DNA of 64,000 nt from Pseudomonas sp. WN033 (GTDB lineage: Bacteria > Pseudomonadota > Gammaproteobacteria > Pseudomonadales > Pseudomonadaceae): the NCBI GenBank assembly GCA_002287035.1, contig NSKG01000001.1, positions 1 to 64,000 on the forward strand, in the 5' to 3' direction. A program made the position numbers and the translations under genes. Shown here in pieces: positions 11,128 through 29,082 of this stretch. The notes beneath the pieces are model-generated. The model had not been told where the DNA came from and did not search any database. It saw only the letters and a list, made by a program, of their open reading frames with translations. Each line of letters starts with the position of its first letter. Position 1 is the stretch's first letter.

Positions 11128-11151
11128 ACAGGTGCTCTCCTCGCTACAGGC

Positions 11152-12156: not shown

Positions 12157-12315
12157 GCTTCATAAAACTCACTACATAGAAACAAAAAACTCTTTATATA
12201 CAAATAGATAAAAAGAATCCCAGAGCCTCACAGAAGAAACACTTGAGACAGTAATAAAAAATGGATCTTAATACTTTTCTGAACTTTCATAATTTTCTAC
12301 AACAAATTTCGCCAC

Positions 12316-12338: not shown

Positions 12339-12463
12339 CTATTCAGCTATCATTGGTCGGGATGGCTCAAACAGACAGCCCTCCTCTTCTGTTAAGATGA
12401 CGTCGCCCTCACACCGGCAGTAACACGACCAATCATTACAAATACAAAACTCATGGTAAGTAC

Positions 12464-14299
12464 ATGTCCGTATCGAACGACAAAAAGAGCAACAGCTCGC
12501 ACTCACTCAAGGACGTGATCACTGACCTGCGTTTTCCAGACATGCAGGACCTGGCCGAGCATTTGTATTTCAACCCGGAAGAAGGGCTTATCTGGCTGGG
12601 TGAAAAGCGCATGCTGATGCTGCATGCCGAAACGTTCGGCTCGCTGCGCCAGGAGCTGCTGGAAAGCCTTGGGATTGAACAGACCCGCGGCCTGCTCACC
12701 CGTATTGGTTACCTGAGCGGTACCCGGGATGCCGAACTGGCCATTCGTACCCGGCAGCATGGTACCCAGCTCGACATACTTGCCGCTGGCGCGCAGATAC
12801 GGTCATTGTGCGGCCTGATCAAAGTTGAACCGGTACGCATTGAGGTCGATCAGCACCAGGGCTATCTGTATGGCGAATTCACCTGGAAACAGTCAATCGA
12901 AAGCGATCAGCACCTGGCCATGAATGGCCACAGTCACGATCCCGTCTGCTGGATGGAAACCGGCTACAGTTCCGGATTCCTGACCCGGCTGATGGGTAAA
13001 CGCATTCTGGTCCGCGAAGTGGAGTGCGTGGCGCGAGGAGACGAGGTTTGTCGCGCAGTGGCTCGCCCGGTAGAAGCCTGGGAAGATGCCGAAAACGATC
13101 TGCAGTACTTCCAGCCACGTTCTTCAATCAGACAGCGACAACAGACTCCAAGCCGTAGCGAATTTTCCGGAATGCAGCCCGGCAGAGCACCATTCGGCCT
13201 GACCTTCGAGCAGCAGGACGTTGCCGAACTGGATCGACCGGTCGGCAGTTCGGCAGCCTATCACGCGGTGCTGCACAAGATTCTCCGGGTAGCCTCTACC
13301 AATGCCACAGTTCTGTTGCTGGGCGAAAGCGGGGTCGGCAAGACCATGTTCGCCCATGAAGTACATGCCAATAGCCGACGTGCCGGCGCGCCTTTCATCG
13401 AGATCAACTGTGCGGCAATCCCAGACACCCTGATCGAGTCGGAGCTGTTCGGCGTTCAGCGCGGCGCTTACTCCGGCGCCACCGAAGCACGCCCAGGGCG
13501 CTTCGAGATCGCTGACGGCGGTACCATTTTTCTCGATGAAATCGGCACCCTTAGCATGACCGCCCAGGGCAAGCTGCTGCGTGTGCTGCAAAGCGGTGAG
13601 CTGGAGCGTCTGGGTAGCACCAAGACCCTAAAAATCAACGTACGGGTCATCGCCGCGACCAACGAGGATCTGGCCGAAGCTGTAAAGCAGGGGCGTTTTC
13701 GCAGCGATCTGTTCTATCGGCTGAACGTTTTCCCGGTCACCATCGCTCCGCTGCGCGAACGCAAGGATGACCTCCCACTGCTGCTTGAGCGTTTCATCAA
13801 CCGGTTGTGTCAGCAACATGAGCGGCAACTAAGTGGCATCACCCCAAGAGCCCTGCAACGCATTCTTGACTACCCCTGGCCGGGCAATATCCGCGAGTTC
13901 GAGAACGTCATTGAGCGCGCAGTTATTCTCGCCGACGATGGTGAAACCCTGGATCTAAGGCATCTCTCTGGCATCGAGGAAGCCCAGCGCGAAACCCACA
14001 AGGGCACGGTAAGCTGGGATCAGGCTCCCGGGATCGGCATCCGCCTGCCCGAGCCCAAGGCCACAGCGGAGGATGGCAGCGTCCCACCCGTCAGCGGACC
14101 GCCATTGGATCAGACGGCATTACGCCTTCTACAGCAGCAACCGCTCAATCTGAGTGATATCGAGGATGCCTTCGTCCGCGCGGCAATGCATCTGGCTGAG
14201 CAAAACATCACTCGCGCCGCCAGCCTGCTCGGGCTGACCCGCGCCCAAATGGACTACCGGCTTAAAAAGATGGCCAACCACAACGCTCCCGAGTCTTGA
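12464..14299 (+). CDS. Sigma-54-dependent XylR/DmpR-family activator
   Basis: 611 aa. Residues about 20-130 are an XylR_N-type sensor start (FPDMQDLAEHLYFNPEEGLIW-like), followed by a V4R domain at about 140-205 with conserved cysteine in GDEVCRAV. The AAA+ domain has Walker A GESGVGKT near 287, the loop GAYSGA near 332 in place of GAFTGA, and GGTIFLDEIGTL as Walker B. A C-terminal Fis-type helix-turn-helix (ITRAASLLGLTRAQMDYRLKK-like) ends the chain. Relatives bind aromatic effectors directly in the sensor domain. It is divergent from the operon with the sigma-54 promoter and a palindromic enhancer, so it very likely activates it in response to the aromatic substrate. Confidence 0.9.
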   Translation: MSVSNDKKSNSSHSLKDVITDLRFPDMQDLAEHLYFNPEEGLIWLGEKRMLMLHAETFGSLRQELLESLGIEQTRGLLTRIGYLSGTRDAELAIRTRQHGTQLDILAAGAQIRSLCGLIKVEPVRIEVDQHQGYLYGEFTWKQSIESDQHLAMNGHSHDPVCWMETGYSSGFLTRLMGKRILVREVECVARGDEVCRAVARPVEAWEDAENDLQYFQPRSSIRQRQQTPSRSEFSGMQPGRAPFGLTFEQQDVAELDRPVGSSAAYHAVLHKILRVASTNATVLLLGESGVGKTMFAHEVHANSRRAGAPFIEINCAAIPDTLIESELFGVQRGAYSGATEARPGRFEIADGGTIFLDEIGTLSMTAQGKLLRVLQSGELERLGSTKTLKINVRVIAATNEDLAEAVKQGRFRSDLFYRLNVFPVTIAPLRERKDDLPLLLERFINRLCQQHERQLSGITPRALQRILDYPWPGNIREFENVIERAVILADDGETLDLRHLSGIEEAQRETHKGTVSWDQAPGIGIRLPEPKATAEDGSVPPVSGPPLDQTALRLLQQQPLNLSDIEDAFVRAAMHLAEQNITRAASLLGLTRAQMDYRLKKMANHNAPES

Positions 14300-14313: not shown

Positions 14314-15678
14314 TCAGTCGCTGGCGCGTAGATTCATACGTCTTGCAGCGAACAATGACGCCAGAAACAGCAGCGAAATCAGCGCAAACAACACCCGATA
14401 CGGTTGGTCAGGTGTTTGCGCCAGAGGTGCAACCACCCCATGTGTCAGGCTGGCCAGCAGCGCACCGATCAGCGTAATACCCAGCGCACCTCCAGCCTGC
14501 CGAGTCATGGTGGTGACTGCTGTCCCCCGACGCAACAGACTGTCCGGTACCGCCCGGGCCATGCTGGTATAGAGACCGGGGATGATCATGCCCAGGGCAA
14601 ACCGACTGATCACAATCCCGGCAGCAATACTGGCAAGCCCACCCGGCCAGGCCAACAGCAAGCTCGATACAGCAAAGCAGGACAGGCCAATCGAGACCAC
14701 CAGGTGCGAAGAGAAACGATCCACCAGCCGCCCAGCCAGAGGAATACTTACGGCCAGAGCCCCCCCACCGAGCAGCAATAGATTACCGGTAGTCACCGCC
14801 GACTCACCCAAGCCGTTTTGCAGCAGCAATGGAATTAGAAAGATCGAACCGTACATGCCAACACCATAGGCCAGCGTTACCAGCAACCCGTTGAAATATG
14901 CGGGATGACTCAATAGCGCCGGCTCGATCAACGGATCTTCACGCACTTGCATCTGCCGCCAGAAAACTCGAACCAGACAAAGCCAGATCAAGGCCATCAG
15001 CATGGCCAAACCTGAGGAATGCTCCAGCAGCAACGGCCAGAGAAACACCAGGACAACCAGCATGGCGAGAAACCCCAGCCCGGCAAAGTCAAGCCGACTG
15101 GGTGTCGTCACTACTGCACGCTCCTGCGGACGGCGCCAGACAATCAGCCCCAGCGCCACCATGGCAGGCGGCACGCCCAGCCAGAAAGTATGACGCCAGT
15201 TGGCATGCTCAACGACAAAACCGGCCAGAGTTGGACCCAGTGCAGGTGCCATTACCACTCCCAGACTGAACATCGACAGGGTACGCCCCTGACGGGCCGG
15301 GTTGGCCGATTCCAGCACCAGAAACAGCGACAAGGGCTGCATGATACCGGCACACAGTCCCTGTACGGCGCGCGCCATCAGCATCGCGGCAAAGCTGTCG
15401 GACAGCCCAGCCAATAACGAAACCAGCAGATACAACAGCAACAGTCTGGCGAACACCCGCCAGGCTCCAAAGCGGTCAGCCAGCCAGGATGCCAGCGGCG
15501 CGCAGACGACTGTCAGACCGAGAAAAACCGATGAAAAGGATTGCGCCAGGCGGTGACTGATTGCGAACTCGGCCATCATCGGCGCAATCGCCACATTGAT
15601 GGTTGTCGCCGACATCACTACGGCGAAACTACCGATCACCAGGGCGGCAATGCTGGTTGCTGAGGCGTGCGTACTCAC
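14314..15678 (-). CDS. MFS transporter (DHA2/EmrB-like)
   Basis: 454 aa, about 12-14 hydrophobic helices. The LADRFGAWRVFARLLLL segment is motif A and the MARAVQGLCAGIMQPLS segment the antiporter motif typical of DHA family drug/H+ antiporters. The GTG at 15678 follows CAGGAGAGCCAG, a strong ribosome binding site, and yields the expected short N-terminus. It lies tail to tail with the activator gene, 14 bases apart, and next to the isochorismatase gene in the same direction but behind that gene's terminator. It could export a toxic aromatic or pathway product; the substrate is not predictable. Confidence 0.82.
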   Translation of the reverse strand: MSTHASATSIAALVIGSFAVVMSATTINVAIAPMMAEFAISHRLAQSFSSVFLGLTVVCAPLASWLADRFGAWRVFARLLLLYLLVSLLAGLSDSFAAMLMARAVQGLCAGIMQPLSLFLVLESANPARQGRTLSMFSLGVVMAPALGPTLAGFVVEHANWRHTFWLGVPPAMVALGLIVWRRPQERAVVTTPSRLDFAGLGFLAMLVVLVFLWPLLLEHSSGLAMLMALIWLCLVRVFWRQMQVREDPLIEPALLSHPAYFNGLLVTLAYGVGMYGSIFLIPLLLQNGLGESAVTTGNLLLLGGGALAVSIPLAGRLVDRFSSHLVVSIGLSCFAVSSLLLAWPGGLASIAAGIVISRFALGMIIPGLYTSMARAVPDSLLRRGTAVTTMTRQAGGALGITLIGALLASLTHGVVAPLAQTPDQPYRVLFALISLLFLASLFAARRMNLRASD

Positions 15679-15694
15679 CTGGCTCTCCTGAAAG

Positions 15695-15726
15695 AAAAAA
15701 ACCCGGCCTCATGAGCGAAGACCGGG
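15695..15726 (-). terminator. Rho-independent terminator after the isochorismatase-fold gene
   Basis: On the minus strand CCCGG and CCGGG arms (15722-15726 and 15702-15706) enclose a 15-base loop and are followed by seven Ts (15695-15701). It ends the operon running from the flavoprotein gene at 18551 and separates it from the MFS gene. Confidence 0.7.
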
Positions 15727-15760
15727 CAGTAAATCATTCTGGACCCAAGGGCTCAGCGAT

Positions 15761-16336
15761 CTACTCAAAGGCCGTTTCAGATGTGGCCACGGAGCAAAAG
15801 CGGGCGATGCTGGCAAGCGAATTGGCATGTTCCTGCTCATTCGGACCAGCGCAGCAGTCTTCCAGCACCACAACATCGTAATCACGGTCATGGGCATCGC
15901 GCACAGTAGCCTGGACCACCGCCTGGGTACTGACGCCGCTGCAATAGATACGCTCAATTCCTTCACGCTTGAGCAGCAGCTCAAGTTTGGTTTGGTAGAA
16001 CGGCGACACCCGGTGTTTGACGATATCCCAATCGCCAGCCTGTGGTGCCAGCGCTTCATGCACCTGACCACCCCAGGCGTTCATTTTGAGAATGCCGTTT
16101 TTGGCAATAGGGCCAAACACCTGCGAGCTGGGATTAGCCTCGCGGTGATCGTCAGAGAACGCCACGCGTACATAGGCAACAGGAACACCCTTGGCCCGCG
16201 CACGGGAAATGGCGTTGGCGGTGCGCTGGATCACCTCGCGAGCCTGAATATCGGCCTGCATCGGAGCCTTGCCGCTGGCACCATCGGCGTGCACCAGGTC
16301 GTTCTGCATATCCAAAACCAGATAAATACTCTTCAT
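15761..16336 (-). CDS. Isochorismatase-fold hydrolase lacking the nucleophilic cysteine
   Basis: Predicted 191 aa from the ATG at 16336, which follows AAGGACG and starts the conserved first strand (IYLVLDMQNDL). The catalytic Asp9 and Lys107 (VKHRVSPF) are in place. At the position where amidases such as PncA have Cys (GLATDYCVK), this protein reads GVSTQAVVQ, with Val140. True isochorismatases (EntB, PhzD) also lack that Cys and cleave a vinyl ether, so amidase or nicotinamidase activity is unlikely. It follows an SDR gene and a flavoprotein gene in one operon. Substrate unknown. Confidence 0.8.
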   Translation of the reverse strand: MKSIYLVLDMQNDLVHADGASGKAPMQADIQAREVIQRTANAISRARAKGVPVAYVRVAFSDDHREANPSSQVFGPIAKNGILKMNAWGGQVHEALAPQAGDWDIVKHRVSPFYQTKLELLLKREGIERIYCSGVSTQAVVQATVRDAHDRDYDVVVLEDCCAGPNEQEHANSLASIARFCSVATSETAFE

Positions 16337-16362
16337 TGAAGTCGTCCTTATGGTTGGTGAAC

Positions 16363-17106
16363 TCAGTCGCACCAAAGTGCGCCATTGACATCGAGAATCT
16401 CGCCATTGATGAAGCCGGAACGTTCATCGAGCAGAAAGTGGATTGCATGGGCAACTTCCTCCGGGGTACCCATGCGCCCCGCTGGGACCAGTGCCCGCAG
16501 GCTTTCGGGAAAGCTGTCGGTCATCTGCGTGGCAATCGGACCAGGAGCTACCGCATTGACCCGAACCCCCTGCGGTGCCAACTCCTTGGCCAGGAACCCG
16601 GTTAGGGTATGAATGGCTGACTTGGACATGCCATAGGCCACGTTACCAGCCCGATCCAGCTCATTCGGATCCAGCCAGGGCCGGGCATTGCCGGCATTCT
16701 TGCCAACCACCGAGCCGATATTGACGATGGCTCCGCGCCCACGGGAGGCCATACGCTGCCCCACCTGCTGACAAACAATCAGAGTCCCCAAAACATTGAT
16801 GCGCCAGACCCGCTCGACCTCGGCCACCGGCAGGTCTATAGCCCGCCCCCGAGACACCACACCAGCGACATTGACCAGAGCGGTGATCTGCCCGTAGCGC
16901 TGTTCGCCCTCACTGACCAGCCGGCTGACTGCCTGCTCGTCGGTAACATCCAAGCCACGAAATGACACTGCTGCGGGCAAAGACGAACCAGGCTGCATGT
17001 CGGTGGCCAGAACCTTGTAACCTTCAGCCAGCAAACGTTCACAAGTGGCCTTGCCGATGGCGCCACAGGCGCCGGTCACCAGCGCCAGCCCTTTGTCAGT
17101 GCTCAT
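16363..17106 (-). CDS. Short-chain dehydrogenase/reductase
   Basis: 247 aa classical SDR. TGACGAIG at about 11-18 is the nucleotide-binding glycine motif; Asp36 after the second strand suggests NAD(H). NVAG lies near 79-82, catalytic Ser132 (NIGSVVG), and Tyr158-xxx-Lys162 (YGMSK). The PGPIATQM region is normal for the family. It would oxidise an alcohol or reduce a ketone, a common step beside ring desaturation. Its ATG overlaps the stop of the upstream flavoprotein gene (ATGA), indicating coupled translation. Confidence 0.9.
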   Translation of the reverse strand: MSTDKGLALVTGACGAIGKATCERLLAEGYKVLATDMQPGSSLPAAVSFRGLDVTDEQAVSRLVSEGEQRYGQITALVNVAGVVSRGRAIDLPVAEVERVWRINVLGTLIVCQQVGQRMASRGRGAIVNIGSVVGKNAGNARPWLDPNELDRAGNVAYGMSKSAIHTLTGFLAKELAPQGVRVNAVAPGPIATQMTDSFPESLRALVPAGRMGTPEEVAHAIHFLLDERSGFINGEILDVNGALWCD

Positions 17107-18551
17107 GCCGTCACCTGTGCAGCGGTCTGACCAGCACGGCGGCCAAATACCAGACCACGCAGTACCGAGGTGCCGCCACAGTAGTTGCCGAAATACATCG
17201 CAGCGGTTTCGCCAGCGGCATACAGGTTGGTAATCGGTGCGCCGTCGACGTTTACCACCCGCGCATGCTCATCGATCTTCAGGCCGCCAAAGGTAAAGAC
17301 ATTGGCCGAGATGATCGGGTAAGCCATGAACGGTCCCTGATCAACGGGCAGTGCCCAGTTGCTTTTTGCCGGGCTTAGCCCCTGGGTCGCGAGACCATCC
17401 AACTCCAGCGGTTTCCAGGTGCCTGGGCGACAGGCAGCGTTGTACTCGGCCATGGTTTGGTTGAACTGATCAACAGGCAGCTCCAGACGCTGAGCCAGTT
17501 CACCGAACGAGTTGCCTTCAATCGCTGGCTGATCGGTGCGAATGCCCAACCGGTAATTGGGAATATCCTTGACCTTCTGGTCCAGGATTACCCAGGCGAT
17601 ACCGTCGGTCTGGGCCAGAATCTTGCGCGTTACCCGCTCATACCAGGCATCCACCGTGCCGGGTGCTTCATCGGTAAAGCGTTTACCTTCGCGGTTGACC
17701 AGCACACCATAGGGAAAGATAAAGATCGATGGTTCGGAAATTCCAGAGCGCGGGTCTACCGGTTCAGCGTGAAAGTTACCGAACTCGCCCGCCCCTGCTG
17801 CGCCGATATCCAGGGCCATCTGAATGCCTTCGCCGCGGTTGTAATACCCCCCCTTGCAGACCGGGCGCATGAAAGCAGCCTTGGGCCCCATGTAGCGGCT
17901 GAGCATTTCCAGGTTTCCTTCAAACCCGCCGCAAGCCAGAGTGACTGCGCCGTGAAAACGCAACTCACCACGCTCGGCTGACCAGGCATGCAGACCACAG
18001 ACCTGGTTCAAGCCACTAGAGATCAGGGCTCGGGCAGTAGTTTCATAGAAGAACTCAGCCCCCAGTGTTTCTGCTCGCGCAGCCAGACATTCGACGATGG
18101 CCTCACCACCACCGACCGGTAGCAGGCGCGGCTGGGTACTGGTAAGAAACTGGGTCGGCAGGAAATCAAAACGTACCCCCTGCTCTTTCAGCCAGTTGAT
18201 GGTGTCAGGCACGCTGTCGGCAAAGGTGCCGATTACGTTGGCATCTATGGCAGCCAAGCTGCGTGCCTGGACCGACCAGTCCGAACGATCACGCAGGCTC
18301 TCGGCTACAAAGTCAGGGTCCTGATAGAAACCAGAATTTTCCGCGAGGAAGGCGTCGAAATCGTCGGTGACCTGGTCATGGCTCTGCATCCGCAGGTAAG
18401 CTTCGGTCCAGCGCGTCTGACCACCGCGTTCCTCGCGTACCGAGCGCTCCAGAACGGCAACCTTGAGTCCCTGCTCGGCCGCCGATACTGCTGCCGACAG
18501 ACCTGCCGCACCGCAGCCCACTACTATCAGATCAAAATTCAGTTCAGTCAT
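17103..18551 (-). CDS. FAD-dependent dehydrogenase, TcuA/fumarate reductase flavoprotein-like (paralogue 1)
   Basis: 482 aa. The N-terminal FAD dinucleotide motif is VVGCGAAGLSAAVSAAEQG with the acid of VLER at the end of strand two. A capping domain follows, and the C-terminal FAD motif ITNLYAAGETAAMYFGNYCG closes the fold. Catalytic region FTFGGLKIDEHARV is typical of the tricarballylate dehydrogenase/3-ketosteroid dehydrogenase/fumarate reductase superfamily. No Tat or Sec signal and no heme motif, so it is a cytoplasmic desaturase that probably donates electrons to ETF. It leads an operon with SDR and isochorismatase-fold genes and faces a LysR gene across an 87-base gap. Confidence 0.83.
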   Translation of the reverse strand: MTELNFDLIVVGCGAAGLSAAVSAAEQGLKVAVLERSVREERGGQTRWTEAYLRMQSHDQVTDDFDAFLAENSGFYQDPDFVAESLRDRSDWSVQARSLAAIDANVIGTFADSVPDTINWLKEQGVRFDFLPTQFLTSTQPRLLPVGGGEAIVECLAARAETLGAEFFYETTARALISSGLNQVCGLHAWSAERGELRFHGAVTLACGGFEGNLEMLSRYMGPKAAFMRPVCKGGYYNRGEGIQMALDIGAAGAGEFGNFHAEPVDPRSGISEPSIFIFPYGVLVNREGKRFTDEAPGTVDAWYERVTRKILAQTDGIAWVILDQKVKDIPNYRLGIRTDQPAIEGNSFGELAQRLELPVDQFNQTMAEYNAACRPGTWKPLELDGLATQGLSPAKSNWALPVDQGPFMAYPIISANVFTFGGLKIDEHARVVNVDGAPITNLYAAGETAAMYFGNYCGGTSVLRGLVFGRRAGQTAAQVTA

Positions 18552-18561
18552 TTTTGTACCT

Positions 18562-18600
18562 CCCTCAGGTGGTTGGTACTATAGAAAGCCACCCTGAGGG
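18562..18600. promoter_or_regulatory. Inverted repeat in the LysR-flavoprotein divergent gap
   Basis: CCCTCAGGTGG (18562-18572) and CCACCCTGAGGG (18589-18600) form an inverted repeat with one bulged base. A TATAGT box (minus strand, 18578-18583) lies between the arms, a likely -10 element for the flavoprotein operon. A LysR-type operator overlapping the promoter is the simplest reading. Confidence 0.5.
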
Positions 18601-18638
18601 GTTCGAGACTTGCTGAGCTAATGGGGTTTTAGAAAAAC

Positions 18639-19592
18639 ATGAAGAACCGAATGGACAAGCTCTGGGCCATGCAGGTCTTTACCCGCGTTGTTGAATGCGG
18701 CAGTTTCAGCCGCGCGGCAGAATCACTGGATATCGCCAATGCCACCGTCACAGCCAGCGTACGCAACCTGGAAACCTACCTGGGGGTCACGCTGCTCAGC
18801 CGCAACACCCGCACCTTGCGCCTGACCGATCCGGGCGAACGATTCTTTCGTCACTGTGTGGAACTGCTGCGTCAGGTCGAGGAAGCAGAAGCGGAAGTCA
18901 TGGAGCAGACCGGTAACATTCAGGGACAGTTGCGGATTGAGTCGCCGGCTGCCTTCGGCAAGGATGTAATCGCCCCGCTGCTGGCCGACTTCTGTCGCCA
19001 GCACCCGGACCTGCAGGTTGCCCTGCGTCTGACCGACCACCCCGAAGGCCTGATTGAAAGCGGTACTGACGTAGCCATACGGATCGACTCAGTCAATGAC
19101 GCCGACCTGGTTGCCAGGCCGCTGTACCAGGCACATTACGTTGCCTGCGCCACCCCCTCATTTCTGGAACTGGCTGGCACCCCGCAGCATCCGCGCGAAT
19201 TGCGCGCCGCCCGCTGCCTGGGCCTGTTCCGCAAAGCCAGTTTCAGCCCGGCAGTCTGGTCGTTCAGTCTTGATGGTGAACACCACGAGCTGTTGCCGGA
19301 AGGCCCGTTGCATTTCAACAGCACCGACGCCTTGATCAATGCCGCGCTGGCCGATCAGGGCTATATCTATGTGCTTGATGTGTTCGTCAACCGACTGATT
19401 TCTGAAGGAAAACTGGTGGAGTTGCTGCCGCAGTGGAGTACCTACGGTCGCACCTTTTTCAGCGTAACAGCCAAGTCACGCTTCGTGGCGCCACGTACGC
19501 GGGCGTTCATCGACTACATGATGAGCAGCCTTGACGCCCAGCGCCGGGTGCCGGTGGGCGTACGTATTGGCCTGCAGCACGGCCGTCAGTGA
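18639..19592 (+). CDS. LysR-family transcriptional regulator
   Basis: 317 aa. Winged helix at residues about 6-65 (FTRVVECGSFSRAAESLDIANATVTASVRNLE-type), linker helix, then a periplasmic-binding-like effector domain starting near 95 (GQLRIESPAAFGKDVIAPLL). The sequence is of the CrgA-like branch common in Proteobacteria. An alternative start at the Met four residues later (MDKLWAMQ) is closer to the usual family start, and neither has a strong ribosome binding site. It is divergent from the flavoprotein-SDR-isochorismatase operon and convergent with etfAB, so it likely regulates the former. Effector unknown. Confidence 0.88.
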   Translation: MKNRMDKLWAMQVFTRVVECGSFSRAAESLDIANATVTASVRNLETYLGVTLLSRNTRTLRLTDPGERFFRHCVELLRQVEEAEAEVMEQTGNIQGQLRIESPAAFGKDVIAPLLADFCRQHPDLQVALRLTDHPEGLIESGTDVAIRIDSVNDADLVARPLYQAHYVACATPSFLELAGTPQHPRELRAARCLGLFRKASFSPAVWSFSLDGEHHELLPEGPLHFNSTDALINAALADQGYIYVLDVFVNRLISEGKLVELLPQWSTYGRTFFSVTAKSRFVAPRTRAFIDYMMSSLDAQRRVPVGVRIGLQHGRQ

Positions 19593-19602
19593 ACTCCAAA
19601 GT

Positions 19603-20571
19603 CTACGCTGGGAGTCGCTCCAGCAAAGCTGGCAACATTTGCTCCCACTCAGCCACCACGCCGAGATTGGCAACCTTGAAAATGTCCGCGGCAGGGTCGC
19701 TGTTGATCGCCACGATGCGGCTGTCATGGCTGATCCCGGCCAGGTGCTGTGGAGTGCCGGAAATCCCTACCGCCAGATAGACATCAGGACTAACAAACTT
19801 GCCGGAGACTCCAACCTGACGCATCACTGGCAGCATCCCGGCATCCACCGCCGGCAGGCTGCCGCCCAAACTGCCGCCGAGTTTTATCGCCAGCTTTTCC
19901 AACAACGCAAACCCAGCCTCATTGACGCCGCGCCCACCGGAAACCACGATACGAGCGCTTTCGACCGGCGGCAGGGTCTGCCCGCTGCTGCTCTGCTCCA
20001 TCTCCAACATGACCGGCAGTGATTTGCCCAGTTCGATAATTCGAGACTCAAGCACATTAGCGTGCGCCGACTGCTGTTGCAGTTTGCCGGCTCGCAGGCA
20101 GGCCACCGCCAGACCGGTCTCAATCTGGAGACGCAACGTCAGCCGCCCACCCCAGCAAGCGCGCTCAAACTCAAGACCGCCAGCCTTCCAGTCCAGTCGC
20201 GCACAGCGCCCAAGCCAGGTTGCGGAAAGACACGCGGCCAGACGAGCCCCCAGTTCTTCACCCTCACTGCCCGGAGGCAGCAGCAACAGTTGCTGACCGG
20301 ACTGATCCAGTGCCTGTGCGGCGGCTTCGGCCAGTGCCTGGAGATTCTCACCATCACTCAGGGCAGCATGTACAGCATAAACCAGCTCAACCGCACCAGC
20401 AGCCCCAGCCAAATCTGTAAGCCAGGCAGCTGGATCCGGACCAAGCGCCAGTACCGCACACTCCAGAGACTGTTGATGCGCCACTTGCCGGGTTGCAGCC
20501 AGCGCCTGTTCGGCAGCCTCCTGCCCCCAGGCCAGCGGGATCACCGCTACAATTCGTTGCTGCATCGTCAT
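19603..20571 (-). CDS. etfA: Electron transfer flavoprotein alpha subunit, pathway-specific paralogue
   Basis: 322 aa. The C-terminal FAD domain has SGGRGVNE, VGVSGKFVSPDVYLAVGISG and HLAGISHDSRIVAINSD, which bind FAD in EtfA/FixB. The N-terminal domain is shorter and more divergent than in housekeeping EtfA. It pairs with EtfB, whose stop overlaps its start (ATGA). ETF accepts electrons from flavoprotein dehydrogenases and passes them to ETF-quinone oxidoreductase, so this pair probably serves the three flavoproteins encoded around it. No Etf-QO gene is in the window. Confidence 0.9.
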   Translation of the reverse strand: MTMQQRIVAVIPLAWGQEAAEQALAATRQVAHQQSLECAVLALGPDPAAWLTDLAGAAGAVELVYAVHAALSDGENLQALAEAAAQALDQSGQQLLLLPPGSEGEELGARLAACLSATWLGRCARLDWKAGGLEFERACWGGRLTLRLQIETGLAVACLRAGKLQQQSAHANVLESRIIELGKSLPVMLEMEQSSSGQTLPPVESARIVVSGGRGVNEAGFALLEKLAIKLGGSLGGSLPAVDAGMLPVMRQVGVSGKFVSPDVYLAVGISGTPQHLAGISHDSRIVAINSDPAADIFKVANLGVVAEWEQMLPALLERLPA

Positions 20572-21356
20572 GCTGACACCCCTCCGCTGTCACGTATATA
20601 AGCCAGGATGGTGTCGGCCTGGCTGCCAACATCGCCCGCCAGCATGCGACACTGGCCGCCGCGCTGAACATCCCGAGCCACCTCCAGGGCTTTCAATCGT
20701 AATGGGCTACCGTCAGCTGTGGCAGCCGCAACATCGAAACCGAGTTTTTTCGCCATCATCACGTTTTTCATCAAGGGGTGGCGCAGCTTGTTGCGCCGAT
20801 CATTGGTCACGGTCGCCAGCACCGGGCCCGGTGGGCGATACCACTGCTGGCGTATGCCACGTTCGCGCAAAAGACACAGTTGACCATCCTGCCATTGTGC
20901 ATACTGGGTCAGCGAGAACAGCGGTAAACCCAACGCTGAAGCCAGCATAACCGGCAGGCCACCTTCATCCAGATCGCCGAACTCGCGCCCAATCAGCAAC
21001 AGGTCCGGCAACAAAGCCTCACTGCGGATCAGCCCGGCAATCTGGTGACTGCTCAGCTGTGCATCCCACAAACAGCAGGGCTGCAGATCGAGGCGGCGCA
21101 GCCGGTCCGGCTTGAATGCCGCCACACTGCGCAACAGGTTGTCACTGTTGCTTCCCCCCAGCACCAGCACCTCCAAATGGCAGTCGCTGTGCTTGTCACG
21201 CAGCTTCAGCGCCAACTCCAGCGCACCCTCATCGAACGGACTGAGAATCCGCCGTGACTGCACACTTTCATCGATCTGTCCGTCAGCACCAATGGCAATG
21301 GGGTGCAACGGATAGCGGTTGTCAGCGACACCGGCCAGCAGCACCAGAATGTTCAT
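20568..21356 (-). CDS. etfB: Electron transfer flavoprotein beta subunit, divergent paralogue
   Basis: 262 aa. EtfB features include the N-terminal ILVLLAGVADNRYPL strand, SPFDEGALELALKLRD (the conserved N-D/E-ALE region), LGGSNSDNLLR, and the late PGPVLATVTNDRRNKLRHP followed by MKNVMMAKK. The usual AMP-binding motif GKQAIDxDxxQxGxMxA is altered to GREFGDLDEGGLPVMLASAL. ATG 21356 is preferred over a GTG one codon upstream because GGGGAGG is five bases before it. It follows the flavoprotein gene at 21373 by 16 bases and precedes etfA. Confidence 0.88.
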   Translation of the reverse strand: MNILVLLAGVADNRYPLHPIAIGADGQIDESVQSRRILSPFDEGALELALKLRDKHSDCHLEVLVLGGSNSDNLLRSVAAFKPDRLRRLDLQPCCLWDAQLSSHQIAGLIRSEALLPDLLLIGREFGDLDEGGLPVMLASALGLPLFSLTQYAQWQDGQLCLLRERGIRQQWYRPPGPVLATVTNDRRNKLRHPLMKNVMMAKKLGFDVAAATADGSPLRLKALEVARDVQRGGQCRMLAGDVGSQADTILAYIRDSGGVSA

Positions 21357-21372
21357 CACAGCCTCCCCAGCT

Positions 21373-22746
21373 TCAGCCTGAAATTACCGTGGCCGCAGCC
21401 AGGCGCCCGAAAATTGCTGCCTTGCCCAGCGCCGACCCGGTCATGTAGGCCGCCCCATGCAGTCCGCCGACCATTTCGCCTGCGGCCAGCAGGCCATCGA
21501 TAGGCTCGCCGAAAACGTCATGCACCCGCATCTGCGGATCAACGCGCACGCCACAGTAGGTGCCGAATACGGCAGCGGTCGAGGGATAGGCATAAAACGG
21601 TGGATGACTTAGAGGGCGCAACTCGCCATGCATATGCACCAGATGCCGACGCCCAAAGGCCGGGGTCTGGCCCTGACTCACGGCCTGGTTATAGGCCTGC
21701 ACTTCAGCAAGAAAGTCTGCTACCGGAAGCTCCAGCATCTGCGCCAGCTCTTCCAGGCTATCGGCTTCGACAAACAATCCTTCCTCCAGCCGGCGCTGAA
21801 AATCGAGAATCCGTACCCGGTTGTCACCGTCGGCCATGATCTCGCGATCTAGAATCTGGTAGGTCACACCATAAGACTGCTGCATGCAGGCATCGCCGAG
21901 CAGCTTGTAGGACAGCGACTCGTCAACATAGCGCCGACCTTCCTGATTCACCGCAATGGCGCCCTTGTAGACCGCCAGGCAGGCGTGGTGATTGTGTTCG
22001 TCCATCGGGTGTTTGCCATAGGTACCCTTGATATGCACCATATCCCGCACATCCGCGCCCAGGGCCCAGGCCATGCGCAGCCCGTCACCCTCATTGCCCT
22101 CACCACCGATGAACACTGCATTGTCATACAGCGGGGAGAAGCGATGGATCATCTCGCGGTCATGCACAAAGCCGCCGCAGGCCAGAATCACCCCGCGCGA
22201 CGCCCGAACCTCCAACGGACTCCCGGCCTGGTCGGCAGCTATTCCGGTAACCCGCCCGCTGACATCGCGTTGCAACCGACGGGCTCGCGTATCGCGCAGC
22301 AGTTCAACCTTGCCGGTCGCCAAGGCGGCCCGTTCCAATTGGCGTATCATGTCGGCAGGATCAACATTGTGTACTCTGGGCACCGACTGCCCTGAGGCGG
22401 TTTCAATCACAGGCAGGAAGCTGACACCGTGGTGCTTAAGCCACTCGTAGGTTGCCAGTTGCTGGTCGACGTAGGCCTTGACCAATGCCTCGTCACATTC
22501 ACCCTTGCCCACCTCAATCAGATCCCGATACAGCAGTTCAGAGGAATCCTCGATACCGCGTTCCTGCTGCAGATCAGTACCTGCAAAGGCCAGACAACCT
22601 CCGCTCATGGCTGAGGAGCCTCCTGTCGCCGAGGTCTTTTCCAGTATCAACACCTGAAGGCCCGCTTCAGCCGCCGTCAACGCGGCAGTAAAACCAGCCA
22701 GGCCCCCACCGATCACCAAGAGTTCAGTCTCAATACGGTTGCTCAT
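21373..22746 (-). CDS. FAD-dependent dehydrogenase, KstD/fumarate reductase-like (paralogue 2)
   Basis: 457 aa. Begins with the FAD motif LLVIGGGLAGFTAALTAAEAG and LILEK, then TSATGGSSAMSGG, the FAD-contacting glycine-serine stretch. ILACGGFVHDREM and the C-terminal IDGLLAAGEMVGGLHGAAYM motif complete the FAD_binding_2 fold. It is soluble and lacks cytochrome or signal sequences. The order racemase-like gene, this gene, etfB, etfA on the minus strand, with an ATGA overlap at its start, suggests an acyl, ketone or ring desaturation whose electrons go to ETF. The substrate is unresolved. Confidence 0.83.
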   Translation of the reverse strand: MSNRIETELLVIGGGLAGFTAALTAAEAGLQVLILEKTSATGGSSAMSGGCLAFAGTDLQQERGIEDSSELLYRDLIEVGKGECDEALVKAYVDQQLATYEWLKHHGVSFLPVIETASGQSVPRVHNVDPADMIRQLERAALATGKVELLRDTRARRLQRDVSGRVTGIAADQAGSPLEVRASRGVILACGGFVHDREMIHRFSPLYDNAVFIGGEGNEGDGLRMAWALGADVRDMVHIKGTYGKHPMDEHNHHACLAVYKGAIAVNQEGRRYVDESLSYKLLGDACMQQSYGVTYQILDREIMADGDNRVRILDFQRRLEEGLFVEADSLEELAQMLELPVADFLAEVQAYNQAVSQGQTPAFGRRHLVHMHGELRPLSHPPFYAYPSTAAVFGTYCGVRVDPQMRVHDVFGEPIDGLLAAGEMVGGLHGAAYMTGSALGKAAIFGRLAAATVISG

Positions 22747-23576
22747 GCCGTGCGCTCCCCGGTGGTTTCGAGCAGACGTTCGCCCAGCCCGTAAAAATCA
22801 AAAATCTCTCTGACTCGTAGTGGGTCTGGGCGGGCCGAAAAATAGTTGCGATTGCAGCTGCGGGTGCCGTTGGCCCGCTGCAGGTCGACCATCGCCTCGG
22901 CCTGCTTGATCCAGGCACCAAGCGAATCGAGCACCGGCACGCCGTCCACCTCACTGATACCGTGAGTAGCCAGCAGCACATTCAGCGGTGCCTCACCGGG
23001 AATGATCACTTCGGCGCCAGCGGTAATCAGTGCCCGTGCCGCACTGCGGAATTGCTCGATCAAAGGCTCAGGATCGCTGAAGGCCGCCAACACATCGGCG
23101 AAGCGGAACCCAACGTGACGCACAGCGGCCAGTCGCCCACCCAGCCCATGCCGAGCCGCATTGTCGCTGACCAATTCAGCCAGTTCGTCGATGAACACCA
23201 GTACGCCAAAACGCCGGCCAAGCATGCAGGCAGTCAGCATGGCCGACTCACCGTAACCAACCACCGGGATGTTCAGCAGGCTACGGATTTCCCGCAGCGC
23301 CGGCTCCGGCAGGGTGCTGATCGCGTAGGCGTCGTAACCCTGAGCTTCGGCATTGATACCGTTGGCCATGAACTGCAGGCCATGCAGGTACTGGAGAGCG
23401 CCGTACTTGATATCGTCGCCCGGATAATTGCTGCGGTAGGTGCCAGGCTGCATACCGTGCATATCGATCACGGTATCGGGGCGGGCCACCTTGCGGAAGT
23501 GAGCCCGCAACGCAGCGTCATAGGCGCCCAGGTCGCTGAGAACGGTAAAACTCTGATGCCAGATGCGAATGCTCAT
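22743..23576 (-). CDS. Asp/Glu/hydantoin racemase-fold protein without catalytic cysteines
   Basis: 277 aa from the ATG at 23576, where the conserved first strand IRIWHQSFTVL begins; a long in-frame upstream extension is shadow reading of the neighbouring flavoprotein gene. The fold resembles hydantoin racemase (HyuA). The first active-site motif, normally CxxDP, reads T88-L-P-E-P, and the second, normally LGCAG, reads P-G-E195-A-P. Both catalytic cysteines are therefore missing. Enzymes of this fold also include maleate isomerase and arylmalonate decarboxylase, all cysteine-dependent. It may do acid-base rather than thiol chemistry, or be non-catalytic. Its stop overlaps the next flavoprotein start (ATGA). 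Confidence 0.75.
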   Translation of the reverse strand: MSIRIWHQSFTVLSDLGAYDAALRAHFRKVARPDTVIDMHGMQPGTYRSNYPGDDIKYGALQYLHGLQFMANGINAEAQGYDAYAISTLPEPALREIRSLLNIPVVGYGESAMLTACMLGRRFGVLVFIDELAELVSDNAARHGLGGRLAAVRHVGFRFADVLAAFSDPEPLIEQFRSAARALITAGAEVIIPGEAPLNVLLATHGISEVDGVPVLDSLGAWIKQAEAMVDLQRANGTRSCNRNYFSARPDPLRVREIFDFYGLGERLLETTGERTA

Positions 23577-23578
23577 GG

Positions 23579-25084
23579 TCAGTCCCTGGTTGGCTGATTG
23601 TCGATGGACAGAGTGTCGGCGGCGCTGTATTGCGCGGCATCGGTGCCGGCCAGACGGCCCAGCACCGATCCCGAGGTGAGCCCGGCACCACCGGCATATT
23701 TGACGTAGTAAAGGTTGCCGACCAGTTCGCCAGCGGCATACAGCCCTTCGATCGGCTGACCCTGTTCGTCCTGAACCCGCGCCTGGCTGTCGACCTGCAG
23801 GCCGCCAAAGGTAAAGGTGATGCCACAGGTAACGGCATAGGCAACGAACGGCGGTTTGCTCAGCGGGTTGGCCCAGTTCGACTTCGGCAGACTCAAACCC
23901 TGAGTACAACGGCCATCACGTACCGCCGGATTGAAGGGGATATCGGTACGCACCGCAGCGTTATAGTCGGTCAGGGTCTGCAGCAATGCTGCTGCATTGA
24001 TGCCTTCGAGCCTGGCCACCAGCGCTTCAAGGCTGTCGGCCTCGATACGGGTGGCCTGACGCACCCGGTACTCATCCGGCAGCAGGTGCTCGCTGTGCTG
24101 ATCGAAGATCTGCCAGGCAACACCTCCGGGTTGGCGCAACACCTTCTCGCCCATGCCGGAGTAGGTGTAATTGCGAAAATCCTCGCCCTCGTCGATAAAG
24201 CGCCGGCCATCGGCATTCACCACCACACCGAGGTGGAAATAGTTCTTCTGCATGTTGAGCAGGTTGATGTCACCTTGCGCCGGGGCGTTGAGGTCGTAGA
24301 ACACCGCGTGGCAACCGGACCAGTTACCATGCGCCGCCGCACCGACATCCAGCGCCATCTGGATACCATCGCCGGTATTGAAGCGTGAGCCACGCACCTT
24401 GGCCAGATCCCAGCCCGGCCCAAGATACTGTGCACGCCAGCGAAGGTTGGCGTGAAAACCGCCGGTGGCAACAATAACCGCAGGTGCGGCATACACCTCA
24501 CCACGGTCGGTCAGCACCTGCCAGCGCCCGTCGCCACAGCGGTTAAGCCGCTTGCCGCGCGTATCATAGACAAGCTCAACTCCCTCCTGCACAGCCCGGC
24601 GAGTCAGCGCATCAACCAGTCCCAGGCCACCGCCGGACACCTCGACCGTCAGGCCGCCCCAAAATTTGTACTTACCGTCGACCTTGAACGCCTGGCGGCC
24701 ATAGATCGGCATGAAGCGCACGCCCTTGCCGGTCATCCAGCACAGGGTATCCAGACTACGGGTAACCACGGTATCCAACACTTCGGGGTCAGCCCGATAC
24801 TGGCTCATCGCGGCCAGCTCACCAAAGAAATCGTCCTCGCTGTAACTGCCGAAGTCACTGTTGTCCAGCTCACTGTCGAGCAGGTCGGGCATCAGCAGTT
24901 TGAGGTCGTTAGCACCCTGATAGGCAACCCGAAAAGCACCGCCAGTATGAGCCGAGTTGCCGCCTTTGAGCGCCTCGGGGGCACGCTCAAGCAGCGCGAC
25001 TCTCGCCCCCTGCTCACGTGCAGACAGGGCTGCGCAGAGGCCGGCATTGCCGCCGCCGAGAACGATAACGTCGAATGAATGCAT
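23579..25084 (-). CDS. FAD-dependent dehydrogenase, TcuA-like (paralogue 3)
   Basis: 501 aa from the ATG at 25084, preceded by CGGAGAG. The FAD motif VIVLGGGNAGLCAALSAREQG is followed by GGNSAHTGGAFR, closely resembling tricarballylate dehydrogenase TcuA. IVATGGFHANLRWRAQYLGP, FTFGGLQVDSQARV and the C-terminal IEGLYAAGELVGNLYYVKYA complete the fold. It is the first gene of a minus-strand operon with the racemase-like gene, paralogue 2 and etfBA. No tcuB (iron-sulfur/heme partner) is present, so electrons more likely go to ETF. A PadR gene is divergent. Confidence 0.84.
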   Translation of the reverse strand: MHSFDVIVLGGGNAGLCAALSAREQGARVALLERAPEALKGGNSAHTGGAFRVAYQGANDLKLLMPDLLDSELDNSDFGSYSEDDFFGELAAMSQYRADPEVLDTVVTRSLDTLCWMTGKGVRFMPIYGRQAFKVDGKYKFWGGLTVEVSGGGLGLVDALTRRAVQEGVELVYDTRGKRLNRCGDGRWQVLTDRGEVYAAPAVIVATGGFHANLRWRAQYLGPGWDLAKVRGSRFNTGDGIQMALDVGAAAHGNWSGCHAVFYDLNAPAQGDINLLNMQKNYFHLGVVVNADGRRFIDEGEDFRNYTYSGMGEKVLRQPGGVAWQIFDQHSEHLLPDEYRVRQATRIEADSLEALVARLEGINAAALLQTLTDYNAAVRTDIPFNPAVRDGRCTQGLSLPKSNWANPLSKPPFVAYAVTCGITFTFGGLQVDSQARVQDEQGQPIEGLYAAGELVGNLYYVKYAGGAGLTSGSVLGRLAGTDAAQYSAADTLSIDNQPTRD

Positions 25085-25111
25085 GCTGCTCTCCGTCTGT
25101 TGCGGTGATGT

Positions 25112-25126
25112 TGTCATCACCTGACA
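25112..25126. promoter_or_regulatory. Candidate PadR operator
   Basis: TGTCA-N5-TGACA, an inverted repeat within the divergent gap (25085-25266) between the flavoprotein operon and padR. It lies within 45 bases of the flavoprotein start, a position where a repressor would block transcription. Assignment is by position and symmetry only. Confidence 0.35.
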
Positions 25127-25266
25127 TGGCGGCATTATCCAAGCGTGAAACCGGTAGTAGGAGGCACCAAGACCGAAGGGGTTTTTCGGATTAGCTGCAA
25201 AGTAATGCGAGGCTTTCCAGCAAAGCATGACTTTGATAGCAGCTGCGCCCCGGCTAGAATGCGCTC

Positions 25267-25806
25267 ATGTCTATCCAACACGCCCTGCTTACCTCTCTGC
25301 TGGAACAGCCCTCAACCGGCTATGAACTGGCCAATCGCTTCGATCGCTCAATCGGCTATTTCTGGCAGGCCAGCCATCAGCAGATCTATCGTGAACTGGC
25401 GCGCATGGCCCGTAGTGGCTGGGTGCAGGTCGAGGAGCAGGACAATGGCGGCAAGCGCCGGCGCAAGGTCTACCGGGTGCTACCGGACGGACGTGAAGAA
25501 TTGATTCGCTGGGCGCGCAGCCCGGAGCTGTCACTGAACAATACCCAGGATCTGCTGGTAAAACTGCGAGCTGAAGCAGTGATAGGTCCGCTGGGGCTGG
25601 ATGCCGAGCTGCAGCAACTGATCGAGCAGCATCAGGTACGGCTGGAGGTTTACCGCGAAATCGAGCAGCGCGACTTTGCCGCCGCCAATCTGAGCAGGGC
25701 CCAACAACTGCAGTATGCCATTTTGCGCAAGGGCATCATGACCGAGGAAAACTGGCTGGCCTGGGCCCAGCAGGTTTTGCCCCTGCTGCGCCAAAACCAG
25801 CCATAG
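25267..25806 (+). CDS. PadR-family transcriptional regulator
   Basis: 179 aa. The N-terminal winged helix has the PadR pattern: LLTSLLEQPSTGYELANRFDRSIGYFWQASHQQIYREL, then the wing VEEQDNGGKRRRKVYRVLPDGREEL. A C-terminal helical Vir_act_alpha_C-type dimerisation domain follows. PadR proteins usually repress phenolic-acid or stress genes and release on ligand binding. It faces the flavoprotein/racemase/etf operon and is convergent with the nitronate monooxygenase-like gene, two bases apart. It likely controls the former. Confidence 0.9.
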   Translation: MSIQHALLTSLLEQPSTGYELANRFDRSIGYFWQASHQQIYRELARMARSGWVQVEEQDNGGKRRRKVYRVLPDGREELIRWARSPELSLNNTQDLLVKLRAEAVIGPLGLDAELQQLIEQHQVRLEVYREIEQRDFAAANLSRAQQLQYAILRKGIMTEENWLAWAQQVLPLLRQNQP

Positions 25807-25808
25807 GA

Positions 25809-26768
25809 TTACAGCGCCAGACGTTCCCGCGCGGCCTGATACTCGCGCTTGAGCCGTTCAACCAGCTGTGCCGCCGGCAGCACTTCCTTGACTGCACCAA
25901 CCCCCTGACCAGCGCCCCAGATATCACGCCAGGCCTTGGACTTGCTGCTGCCGCCAGAACCAAAGCTCATCTTCGACGGATCAGACTCCGGCAGGCTCTC
26001 CGGATCCAGACCGCTGTTGACGATGCTCTGGCGCAAGTAGTTGCCATGCACGCCGGTGAACAGGTTGGAGTAGACGATGTCCTCGGCGCTACTGGCAACG
26101 ATCATGTCCTTGTAGGCCTGGTCGGCATGGGCTTCTTCGGTGGCGATGAAGGCCGAGCCAATGTAGGCCAGATCGGCACCGGCGGCCTGGGCTGCCAGCA
26201 CCGCATTGCCGTTGGCAATCGAGCCGGACAGCAGCAGTGGCCCGTCGAACCACTCGCGAATTTCCTGGATCAGCGCGAATGGCGACTGGGTACCGGCATG
26301 CCCGCCGGCACCGGCGGCTACCGCGATCAGGCCATCGGCGCCTTTCTCGATGGCCTTCTTGGCGAACTTGTTGTTGATGATGTCGTGCAGCACGATGCCG
26401 CCATAGCCGTGGACCCGCTGATTCAGATCCTCACGGGCACCCAGCGAGGTGATGATGATCGGCACCTTGTACTTCTCACACAGCGCCAGGTCGTGCTCCA
26501 GTCGGTCATTGGACTTGTGTACGATCTGGTTGACCGCAAACGGCGCGGCCGGTTTGTCCGGGTTTTGCGCGTTGTATTCGTCCAGCTCGCGAGTAATGCG
26601 CTCCAGCCACTCTTCCAGCACCGGTCCGGGACGCGCATTGAGCGCCGGGAACGAGCCAACCACCCCGGCCTTGCACTGGGCAATCACCAGATCAGGGTTG
26701 GAAATGATGAACAGCGGCGAGCAGACCGCCGGCAACGACAGATTTTGCAGAATTGCGGGAAGAGCCAT
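25809..26768 (-). CDS. Nitronate monooxygenase-like FMN protein
   Basis: 319 aa TIM-barrel FMN protein of the NMO/2-nitropropane dioxygenase family. Residues LPAVCSPLFIISNPDLVIA match the N-terminal substrate/FMN strand; VAAGAGGHAG carries the conserved catalytic histidine; LSGSIANG and AYIGSAFIATEEA bind the FMN phosphate. Family members oxidise nitronates such as propionate-3-nitronate, or act as enoyl reductases. Here, next to flavoprotein desaturases, an oxidoreductase role in the pathway is possible but undetermined. It heads away from padR with the NTF2-like gene upstream. Confidence 0.85.
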   Translation of the reverse strand: MALPAILQNLSLPAVCSPLFIISNPDLVIAQCKAGVVGSFPALNARPGPVLEEWLERITRELDEYNAQNPDKPAAPFAVNQIVHKSNDRLEHDLALCEKYKVPIIITSLGAREDLNQRVHGYGGIVLHDIINNKFAKKAIEKGADGLIAVAAGAGGHAGTQSPFALIQEIREWFDGPLLLSGSIANGNAVLAAQAAGADLAYIGSAFIATEEAHADQAYKDMIVASSAEDIVYSNLFTGVHGNYLRQSIVNSGLDPESLPESDPSKMSFGSGGSSKSKAWRDIWGAGQGVGAVKEVLPAAQLVERLKREYQAARERLAL

Positions 26769-26796
26769 GAAGCCTCCGGAAACAGGTGGGAATTGA

Positions 26797-27231
26797 TCAG
26801 GCCTGGCCAGCCAGAATCGCCTTGTAGGGCTCCATGCGCCGGGCCATTTCCGCGCCCAGTGCCTGCAGTCCGCTCAGCGGCCGTACCATGACTTCGAATT
26901 CAAGAATCTTGCCCTGGTCATCGAAACGCAGCATGTCGATGCCCTTGAGCGCCTTGCCGTTGACCTCGGCACTGAACTCCAGAACTACGCTGGAGCCGCA
27001 GTCACTGACGAAGCTGCGATGATAGCGGAAATTCTCGAAAACCTGATTGACGTTTTTGAGTACCAGCTTGATGGCCGCTCGCCCCGGATAGGGGGTATGG
27101 GCTACCGGCGAGCGAAACACGATGTCATCGGCCAGCAACGGGTCCAGCTCTTCCATTGCATTACGTTCGAGAATCCGGTGCCAGGTATCAAGGGTGGCCT
27201 GGGCAGCCGGAGCAAGGGTGTTGGATGACAT
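26797..27231 (-). CDS. NTF2-like (SnoaL-type) small protein
   Basis: 144 aa alpha+beta cone of the NTF2/SnoaL class: an N-terminal helix pair (TWHRILERNAMEELDPLLADDIVF), then RSPVAHTPYPGRAAIKLVLKNV and long strands VVLEFSAEVNGKALKGIDMLRFDDQGKILEFEVMVRP. Such proteins include ketosteroid isomerase-like and polyketide cyclase-like enzymes, as well as non-enzymatic ligand binders. Without the catalytic Asp-Tyr pattern clearly visible no reaction is assigned. It is the first gene of a two-gene unit with the nitronate monooxygenase-like gene, 28 bases apart. Confidence 0.75.
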   Translation of the reverse strand: MSSNTLAPAAQATLDTWHRILERNAMEELDPLLADDIVFRSPVAHTPYPGRAAIKLVLKNVNQVFENFRYHRSFVSDCGSSVVLEFSAEVNGKALKGIDMLRFDDQGKILEFEVMVRPLSGLQALGAEMARRMEPYKAILAGQA

Positions 27232-28976: not shown

Positions 28977-29041
28977 GGGAGGACGCTCCGAATGTATGAC
29001 TCTGATGTCGTACAGCCTACCGCCAGCGCCGTGCCAACACC

Positions 29042-29055
29042 TTGACGCATATCAA
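29042..29055 (-). promoter_or_regulatory. ANR/DNR box upstream of hemN
   Basis: TTGAC-GCAT-ATCAA, one mismatch from TTGAT-N4-ATCAA, centred 72 bases upstream of the hemN start. That predicts a start site about 30 bases before the ATG if the site is at -41.5. The box lies in the norR-hemN gap. Confidence 0.7.
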
Positions 29056-29082
29056 CGGTGCGCCAATTGCCTGGACCACCGG

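Follow-up and report, generated by a model that had tools for sequence, protein, structure and literature searches.

A candidate flavoprotein module with its own electron-transferring flavoprotein in one island with a meta-cleavage pathway in Pseudomonas sp. WN033

What do three flavoproteins of the FAD_binding_2 family oxidize when they are encoded together with an electron-transferring flavoprotein (ETF) of their own? This question is raised by the first 64,000 nucleotides of contig NSKG01000001.1 (forward strand) of Pseudomonas sp. WN033 (GenBank assembly GCA_002287035.1), a stretch referred to here as the window, which belongs to a genome of 4.16 Mb. A first-pass annotation of positions 14,314 to 27,231 had described such a gene cluster and interpreted it as a pathway for the stepwise desaturation of an alicyclic or cyclohexenone-type compound. 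The observation is confirmed by the present analysis, and the interpretation is partly supported. In the favored reading, to which a probability of about 0.5 is given, the three flavoproteins and six companions form an undescribed catabolic module, in which an ETF-coupled and apparently coenzyme A (CoA)-free desaturation would act on the non-aromatic part of a phenolic compound or on an acid released from it.

The core of the cluster has nine genes, all on the reverse strand except the regulator. The flavoprotein genes, here called FP1 (17103-18551; PF00890, E 3.4e-44), FP2 (21373-22746; E 6.3e-61), and FP3 (23579-25084; E 8.7e-38), lie together with those for the ETF subunits EtfA (19603-20571; PF00766 and PF01012) and EtfB, which is divergent (20568-21359; PF01012), a protein with the Asp/Glu/hydantoin-racemase fold (RAC, 22743-23576; PF01177), a short-chain dehydrogenase/reductase (SDR, 16363-17106; Pfam), an isochorismatase-fold protein (ICH, 15761-16336; PF00857), and a LysR regulator on the forward strand (18639-19592; Pfam). 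Pfam thus bears out the clustering that had been described and, as had also been noted, the conserved core includes no CoA ligase. FP3 is the first gene of the run FP3-RAC-FP2-EtfB-EtfA. Four-base overlaps of start and stop codons link FP1 with SDR, EtfB with EtfA, and FP2 with RAC, and the spacing between FP3 and RAC is 2 nt with the starts of both genes as chosen by the analyst. There are 26 matches to PF00890 genome-wide, five of them with E <1e-30, and FP1-3 are three of those five.

A search of other genomes for this gene order, which the first-pass annotation had suggested, shows that the nine-gene core recurs in Pseudomonas, Halopseudomonas, Marinobacter, and several Betaproteobacteria. 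Searching genome contigs with RAC gave 35 loci, each extending up to 10 kb beyond this gene: 16 from Gammaproteobacteria, 17 from Betaproteobacteria, a 38-residue match (L052), and a 31% relative (L053). In unannotated loci, genes were taken from a simple open reading frame (ORF) picker, so start positions there are uncertain. The eight genes RAC, FP2, EtfB, EtfA, LysR, FP1, SDR, and ICH are complete in 12 of the 16 gammaproteobacterial loci, with some genes in pieces in two of these (L029, L050), and in 9 of the 17 betaproteobacterial loci. The gammaproteobacterial exceptions are three loci truncated at a locus or contig boundary (L020, L021, L024) and a fragmentary remnant (L030). Of the betaproteobacterial exceptions, four are truncated or on short contigs (L037, L046-L048) and four are reduced (L035, L040, L042, L049); the genome G600 holds a RAC fragment only. 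A compact form, FP1-SDR-ICH-RAC-FP2-LysR-EtfB-EtfA, is found on a Variovorax plasmid, with FP3 and an MmgE/PrpD gene beside it. The module is rare and patchily distributed: RAC is found in 10 of 198 genomes of the family (one match being partial), and ICH, at E <= 1e-40, in 1 of 398 genomes of the phylum, which is the window's own.

The three flavoproteins had been described as paralogous. Their common family and their clustering stand, but they appear from their sequences to be old, distinct lineages and not recent paralogues. FP1 and FP3 share 36% identity, FP2 is 28-30% identical to either, and in a tree each belongs to its own orthologue clade covering Gamma- and Betaproteobacteria. Two of them resemble TcuA, which together with TcuB carries out a CoA-free desaturation. 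FP3 scores 545 bits with the NCBIfam TcuA model (NF006130), above its cut-off of 369, and FP1 scores 352.6, just under it. Consequently, the cluster could be a tricarballylate (TcuABC) system in another arrangement, a described substrate that the first-pass annotation had named as an alternative. In favor of this, 8 of the 15 cluster carriers tested encode TcuB elsewhere (one match below cut-off), and all 5 Betaproteobacteria tested are among these 8. Nevertheless, TcuB (TIGR02484) has no match in the window's genome or in its close relative G098, although it was detected in both TcuA/TcuB control genomes, and ETF genes stand in place of TcuB in the window's genome. In addition, FP3 and the control TcuA proteins, which have TcuB next door, share 35% identity, and the FP3 clade is separate from theirs with support of 100/100 in a tree that carries a long-branch warning. 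The control TcuA pair joins the FP1 lineage only weakly (91/66, with the same warning). Since TcuB is absent from its own genome and FP3 belongs to another clade, the cluster is not filed as a tricarballylate system despite the TcuA score, and such an assignment is very improbable.

FP2 has flavocytochrome c and urocanate reductase as its best solved relatives. It scores 273.7 with the flavo_cyto_c model against a cut-off of 285.5, and differs from these proteins in having no heme domain and in a substitution that it shares with FP1 and FP3. A tyrosine replaces the arginine of the fumarate-type GANRLGG-type motif in all aligned rows (28/28 for FP1, 18/18 for FP2, and 11/11 for FP3; >58% identity, >90% coverage), while the arginine is kept in the NadB-like row of the same genome; one control row (own_L001), translated in a wrong frame, was left out. 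The same tyrosine, at the YPGPG position, is present in the three rows of 3-ketosteroid dehydrogenase (KstD) that have a letter there, a fourth being gapped at this column. This at first seemed diagnostic of KstD, but the identification was dropped, since both TcuA proteins with adjacent TcuB, judged by eye, also have the tyrosine. Thus, it does not separate ketone from carboxylate substrates. A further tyrosine of FP2 fits the PY motif of KstD when read ungapped by eye, and is placed elsewhere by the MAFFT alignment. A predicted structure of FP2 (pLDDT 56) was discarded.

The superfamily membership of KstD and of ChcC1/ChcC2 is nevertheless one argument for a first alternative, a tentative one, in which FP1-3 would stepwise desaturate a ring of the cyclohexanone or cyclohexenone type to a phenol that is then opened by the neighboring HsaA-like hydroxylase and meta pathway. 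In the aromatization of cyclohexanecarboxylate, ChcB2 and ChcC1/ChcC2, an SDR and two FAD_binding_2 desaturases, act on the free acid with no CoA, and the present cluster likewise has an SDR and FAD_binding_2 proteins. By contrast, it has three flavoproteins, a private ETF, RAC, and ICH, and the scores are far under the cut-offs: FP2 reaches 149 of 1000 bits for ChcC1 and 143 of 900 for ChcC2, and SDR 116 of 350 for ChcB2. None of the KstD models is passed either, with scores of <=188 bits against cut-offs of about 790. As the tyrosine is shared with TcuA, it does not rescue this alternative.

The ETF had been called private to the cluster, and this holds. The ETF domains of EtfA and EtfB are intact in Pfam and in the orthologue alignment, including the FAD-binding domain of EtfA with its FAD motif, and EtfB and its aligned orthologues retain the recognition-loop region LRHPLMKNVMMAK. 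The other EtfA matches of the genome are on contigs C12 and C20. EtfB and RAC are each carried by 10 of the 198 family genomes, with 9 carriers in common, and the ETF is inherited along with the flavoproteins. One genome of the family, G050 (C19:151146-151928), has the private EtfB at 73% and no RAC or hsaA match, and may hold a reduced or different module.

RAC and ICH lack the catalytic cysteines that are usual for their folds. At the positions of the two catalytic cysteines of racemases (placed by alignment, as in 2eq5), RAC has threonine and glutamate in 33/33 aligned rows; another cysteine, Cys117, is invariant, as is Glu195 at the second racemase position. The fold itself is kept in an AlphaFold model (pLDDT 82.7), for which Foldseek returned allantoin racemase as the best solved match and, as a further match, OpaE, titled an atypical member in its structure entry. 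A similar situation is observed for ICH, where valine occupies the position of the nucleophilic cysteine of the amidase branch and GVSTQAVVQA is invariant in 28/28 aligned rows. Set beside the vinyl-ether branch of the isochorismatase superfamily (EntB, PhzD), ICH keeps the Asp and Lys motifs and has no nucleophilic cysteine. These 33 RAC and 28 ICH rows were kept from 35 possible ones (34 loci and the window) at >45% identity and 85% coverage, with no stop. Because the catalytic cysteines are absent, a reading of ICH and RAC as a maleamate amidase and a maleate isomerase, a pairing that is nicotinate-type, was rejected.

The single reactions of each of these enzyme families are known. However, a literature search at the level of abstract openings found no published description of this gene set and, as far as such a search can tell, the combination of flavoproteins, a private ETF, and two folds that lack the catalytic cysteines typical of them has not been described.

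How is this core related to the genes beside it? The conserved set extends to the left of the region first annotated, into meta-cleavage genes at 337-14299. In window order from the core, these are a XylR/MobR-type sigma-54 activator with XylR_N and V4R domains (12464-14299, forward strand; profile matches) and, on the reverse strand, an extradiol dioxygenase of the BphC/HsaC type (11152-12093; TIGR03213, 275.5 bits against a cut-off of 366), an alpha/beta hydrolase weakly similar to HsaD (10240-11127), the flavin reductase of a two-component hydroxylase (9710-10243; profile matches), an HsaA-like protein that is probably a flavin-dependent phenol hydroxylase (8441-9679), the DUF1302, DUF1329, BNR/YCF48, and RND genes (1600-8416), and a 2-oxopent-4-enoate hydratase of the DmpE type (337-1194; TIGR03220, 442.9 bits against a cut-off of 408.8). 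The island thus carries two regulators. The genes from RND to DUF1302 are conserved between hsaA and the hydratase gene and probably take part in transporting a hydrophobic substrate. Past the region equivalent to the window, the close relative G098, whose proteins are 94-100% identical, also encodes an acetaldehyde dehydrogenase, a 4-hydroxy-2-oxovalerate aldolase, and a BphD-like hydrolase.

The set is similar to HsaABCD or BphCD joined to DmpEFG in its hydroxylase, dioxygenase, hydrolases, and lower pathway, of which the hydratase, aldolase, and acetaldehyde dehydrogenase score above curated cut-offs. The upper enzymes are under all of theirs (HsaA 320 of 450 bits, HsaC 207 of 450, HsaD 119 of 400, HsaB 66 of 230), and the aromatic substrate is therefore probably other than 3-HSA or biphenyl. 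The nearest solved structure to the HsaA-like protein is 3-HSA hydroxylase. The best solved relative of the dioxygenase is 23al/9x2g, at 338 bits against 185 for BphC, and these entries bear a generic name only. A sulfatase-like gene, below the cut-off of the arylsulfatase model, is near or in the meta run of G098 (L071 10978-12639) and P. insulae (L127 7721-9403), which hints that some strains may use a sulfated substrate.

The link between the core and the HsaA-like pathway, which had also been proposed, is upheld. HsaA-like orthologues (73-91%) are present in 10 of the 11 gammaproteobacterial cluster genomes tested, the exception being G205, which has the remnant cluster L030; three of these ten and three FP3 orthologues are listed with one internal stop. 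Among the 198 family genomes, 8 carry hsaA (E <= 1e-170) and all 8 also carry RAC, the two genes being 14-23 kb apart (Fisher 9e-13, kinship ignored). The placement of FP3 is the strongest new argument for a single island of core and meta pathway. Seven Pseudomonas genomes lack FP3 beside RAC, and all of them hold an FP3 orthologue (74-77%). In five (G202, G206, G207, G208, G777), this orthologue shares a contig with the other cluster genes. In G204 it is partial and on a different contig; the seventh genome is G776. The run flavin reductase-hsaA-DUF1302-DUF1329-BNR-RND-hydratase-dehydrogenase-aldolase-hydrolase-FP3 of P. fluorescens HK44 (G208) ends with FP3, 15 nt past the ORF of the BphD-like hydrolase. 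Beyond the same run, P. sp. H9 and P. insulae have at least one extra gene and then FP3, with the rest of the core on the other side.

These arrangements, together with the presence of RAC in every hsaA carrier, make it unlikely that two unrelated catabolic units are merely adjacent. For such an accidental neighborhood speak the Betaproteobacteria that hold the core without an HsaA match, the genome G025, which has RAC and EtfB and no hsaA match (though its contig stops just past them), and G050 with EtfB alone.

The betaproteobacterial clusters and the contexts of distant relatives bear on the order of events. No HsaA match (E <= 1e-30) was found in any of the 6 betaproteobacterial genomes tested. 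MmgE/PrpD genes are present in 12 of the betaproteobacterial loci, and receptors of the tripartite-tricarboxylate type (TctC) are beside the module on the annotated Variovorax plasmid. Outside the Variovorax cluster, contexts were opened for 5 of 9 plasmid records with FP2 relatives and for 4 of 19 with FP1 relatives. The FP2 relatives (41-44%) are near an extradiol dioxygenase (one case) or a pair of cupin and FAH-family genes (three cases) in 4 of the 5, and these cupins are probably ring-cleaving. The FP1 relatives are beside an aldehyde dehydrogenase in 4/4 contexts, with a CoA-transferase and a CoA-ester lyase in 2/4.

Part of this argues for the ring being aromatized first, as do the phenol-type XylR/V4R regulator that adjoins the core and the position of FP3 within the meta operon of HK44: the FP2 relatives are found close to probable ring-cleavage genes. 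However, the Betaproteobacteria tested have the core and none has an HsaA match. The rest is consistent with a second possibility, in which the BphD-like hydrolase would free an acid (R-COOH) that the core then breaks down by CoA-free desaturation, oxidation, and cleavage, with the Betaproteobacteria importing the same acid. This possibility is held as tentatively as the other. It would account for the TcuA-like FP1 and FP3, MmgE/PrpD, the TctC receptors where annotated, the missing HsaA match, the neighbors of the FP1 relatives, and the location of FP3 directly after the hydrolase gene in HK44. By contrast, the contexts of the FP2 relatives do not fit it, and TctC receptors abound in Bordetella-type genomes, which makes them weak evidence for the import of an acid. 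Consequently, the earlier suggestion of a ring aromatized to a phenol that enters the meta pathway stays tentative, given the Betaproteobacteria and the TcuA-like proteins, which suit an acid equally well.

Two observations on these clusters stand apart. On a Rhizobium gallicum plasmid (L085 10001-12108), an FP2 relative (43%) directly adjoins a RAC relative (about 32-34%), and cupin and FAH-family genes are a few kb away; the record is unannotated, and its genes were located by tblastn. An MmgE/PrpD-like protein of P. insulae has no NCBIfam model match and matches only one betaproteobacterial copy, at 31% over 418 columns; MmgE/PrpD was thus not counted as a member common to both classes.

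Both orders are compatible with the favored reading, that of a module for the ETF-coupled oxidation of a non-aromatic part, as it may act either before ring cleavage, when the phenol is made, or after it, on the released acid. FP1-3 would each carry out a two-electron oxidation of C-C bonds in a non-aromatic ring or a carboxylated moiety, and the electrons would pass to the module's own ETF and from there to quinone. SDR may turn an alcohol into a ketone, and ICH and RAC may contribute a hydrolysis and an isomerization or lyase step, respectively, outside ordinary amide or amino-acid chemistry. In Gammaproteobacteria, the module would act together with the full meta pathway of hydroxylase, extradiol dioxygenase, hydrolase, hydratase, and aldolase; their presence in one island argues for the joint degradation of a phenol that either bears a non-aromatic part or derives from one. 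Betaproteobacteria hold the module without the HsaA-type part.

Several results weigh against this reading. FP1 and FP3, being TcuA-like, could use aliphatic carboxylates, in which case no ring would take part. Nor is the set obligate, because FP2 is absent or weak in some Betaproteobacteria: there is no match at E <= 1e-60 in the core-carrying genomes G598 and G599, and two more genomes have matches of only 42-49%. Among core enzymes, the loci L040 and L049 have RAC-SDR-ICH only, and L035 has RAC only. The cysteine pair is also missing from two RAC relatives of other clusters, and a second RAC-like protein of the betaproteobacterial clusters has one; its loss is therefore not special to the module. 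Finally, the 8 hsaA carriers come from two genera, and their relatedness inflates the co-occurrence counts.

A more specific version of the scheme is doubtful. In it, FP1-3 would introduce a double bond beside an oxygen function of a cyclic or carboxylated compound, giving an enol or vinyl ether that ICH hydrolyzes, RAC isomerizes or cleaves, and SDR oxidizes, which would amount to a new CoA-free catabolic logic. If true, this would stand as the flavin-driven equivalent of beta-oxidation, or else as an oxidative route of ether cleavage, coupled to meta cleavage in Gammaproteobacteria and free-standing in Betaproteobacteria.

The favored reading has a wider bearing, as ETF-linked desaturation would then reach beyond acyl-CoA. 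FAD_binding_2 desaturases are readily filed by model score as fumarate reductases, KstD, or TcuA. FP3, for instance, is TcuA by score in a genome without TcuB, and the conserved set around it, with its own ETF and two folds lacking their catalytic cysteines, points to chemistry that such names would hide.

The remaining genes of the region stand outside the conserved core. LysR and PadR had been named as the regulators of the cluster; LysR is conserved with the core, but PadR (25267-25806, forward strand), like NMO (25809-26768, reverse) and SnoaL/NTF2 (26797-27231, reverse), all assigned by Pfam, has no match listed in the 35 related loci at a threshold of 60 bits. All three were thus rejected as core members, against the earlier inclusion of NMO and NTF2. 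FP2 relatives do have NTF2-like genes next to them in Rhodococcus (L086) and V. boronicumulans (L088). At the other end, a DHA2/EmrB-like MFS transporter (14314-15678, reverse; Pfam, score below cut-off) is found in only part of the gammaproteobacterial loci. The loci L040 and L049 also encode a CMD-like protein, together with an amidohydrolase_2 protein in L040 and a glyoxalase-family dioxygenase in L049. Between the hydratase and RND genes, ARAGORN calls a tRNA-Tyr at 1415-1513 (reverse strand) within an ORF at 1115-1603, and the relative locus L126 (11133-11594) likewise has an ORF at this place; the call is probably a false positive. To the right, the island is bordered at 27594-34386 by genes of the nitric-oxide/denitrification type, namely those for HemN, NorR, a DUF542/hemerythrin protein, NnrS, and a Crp-type regulator.

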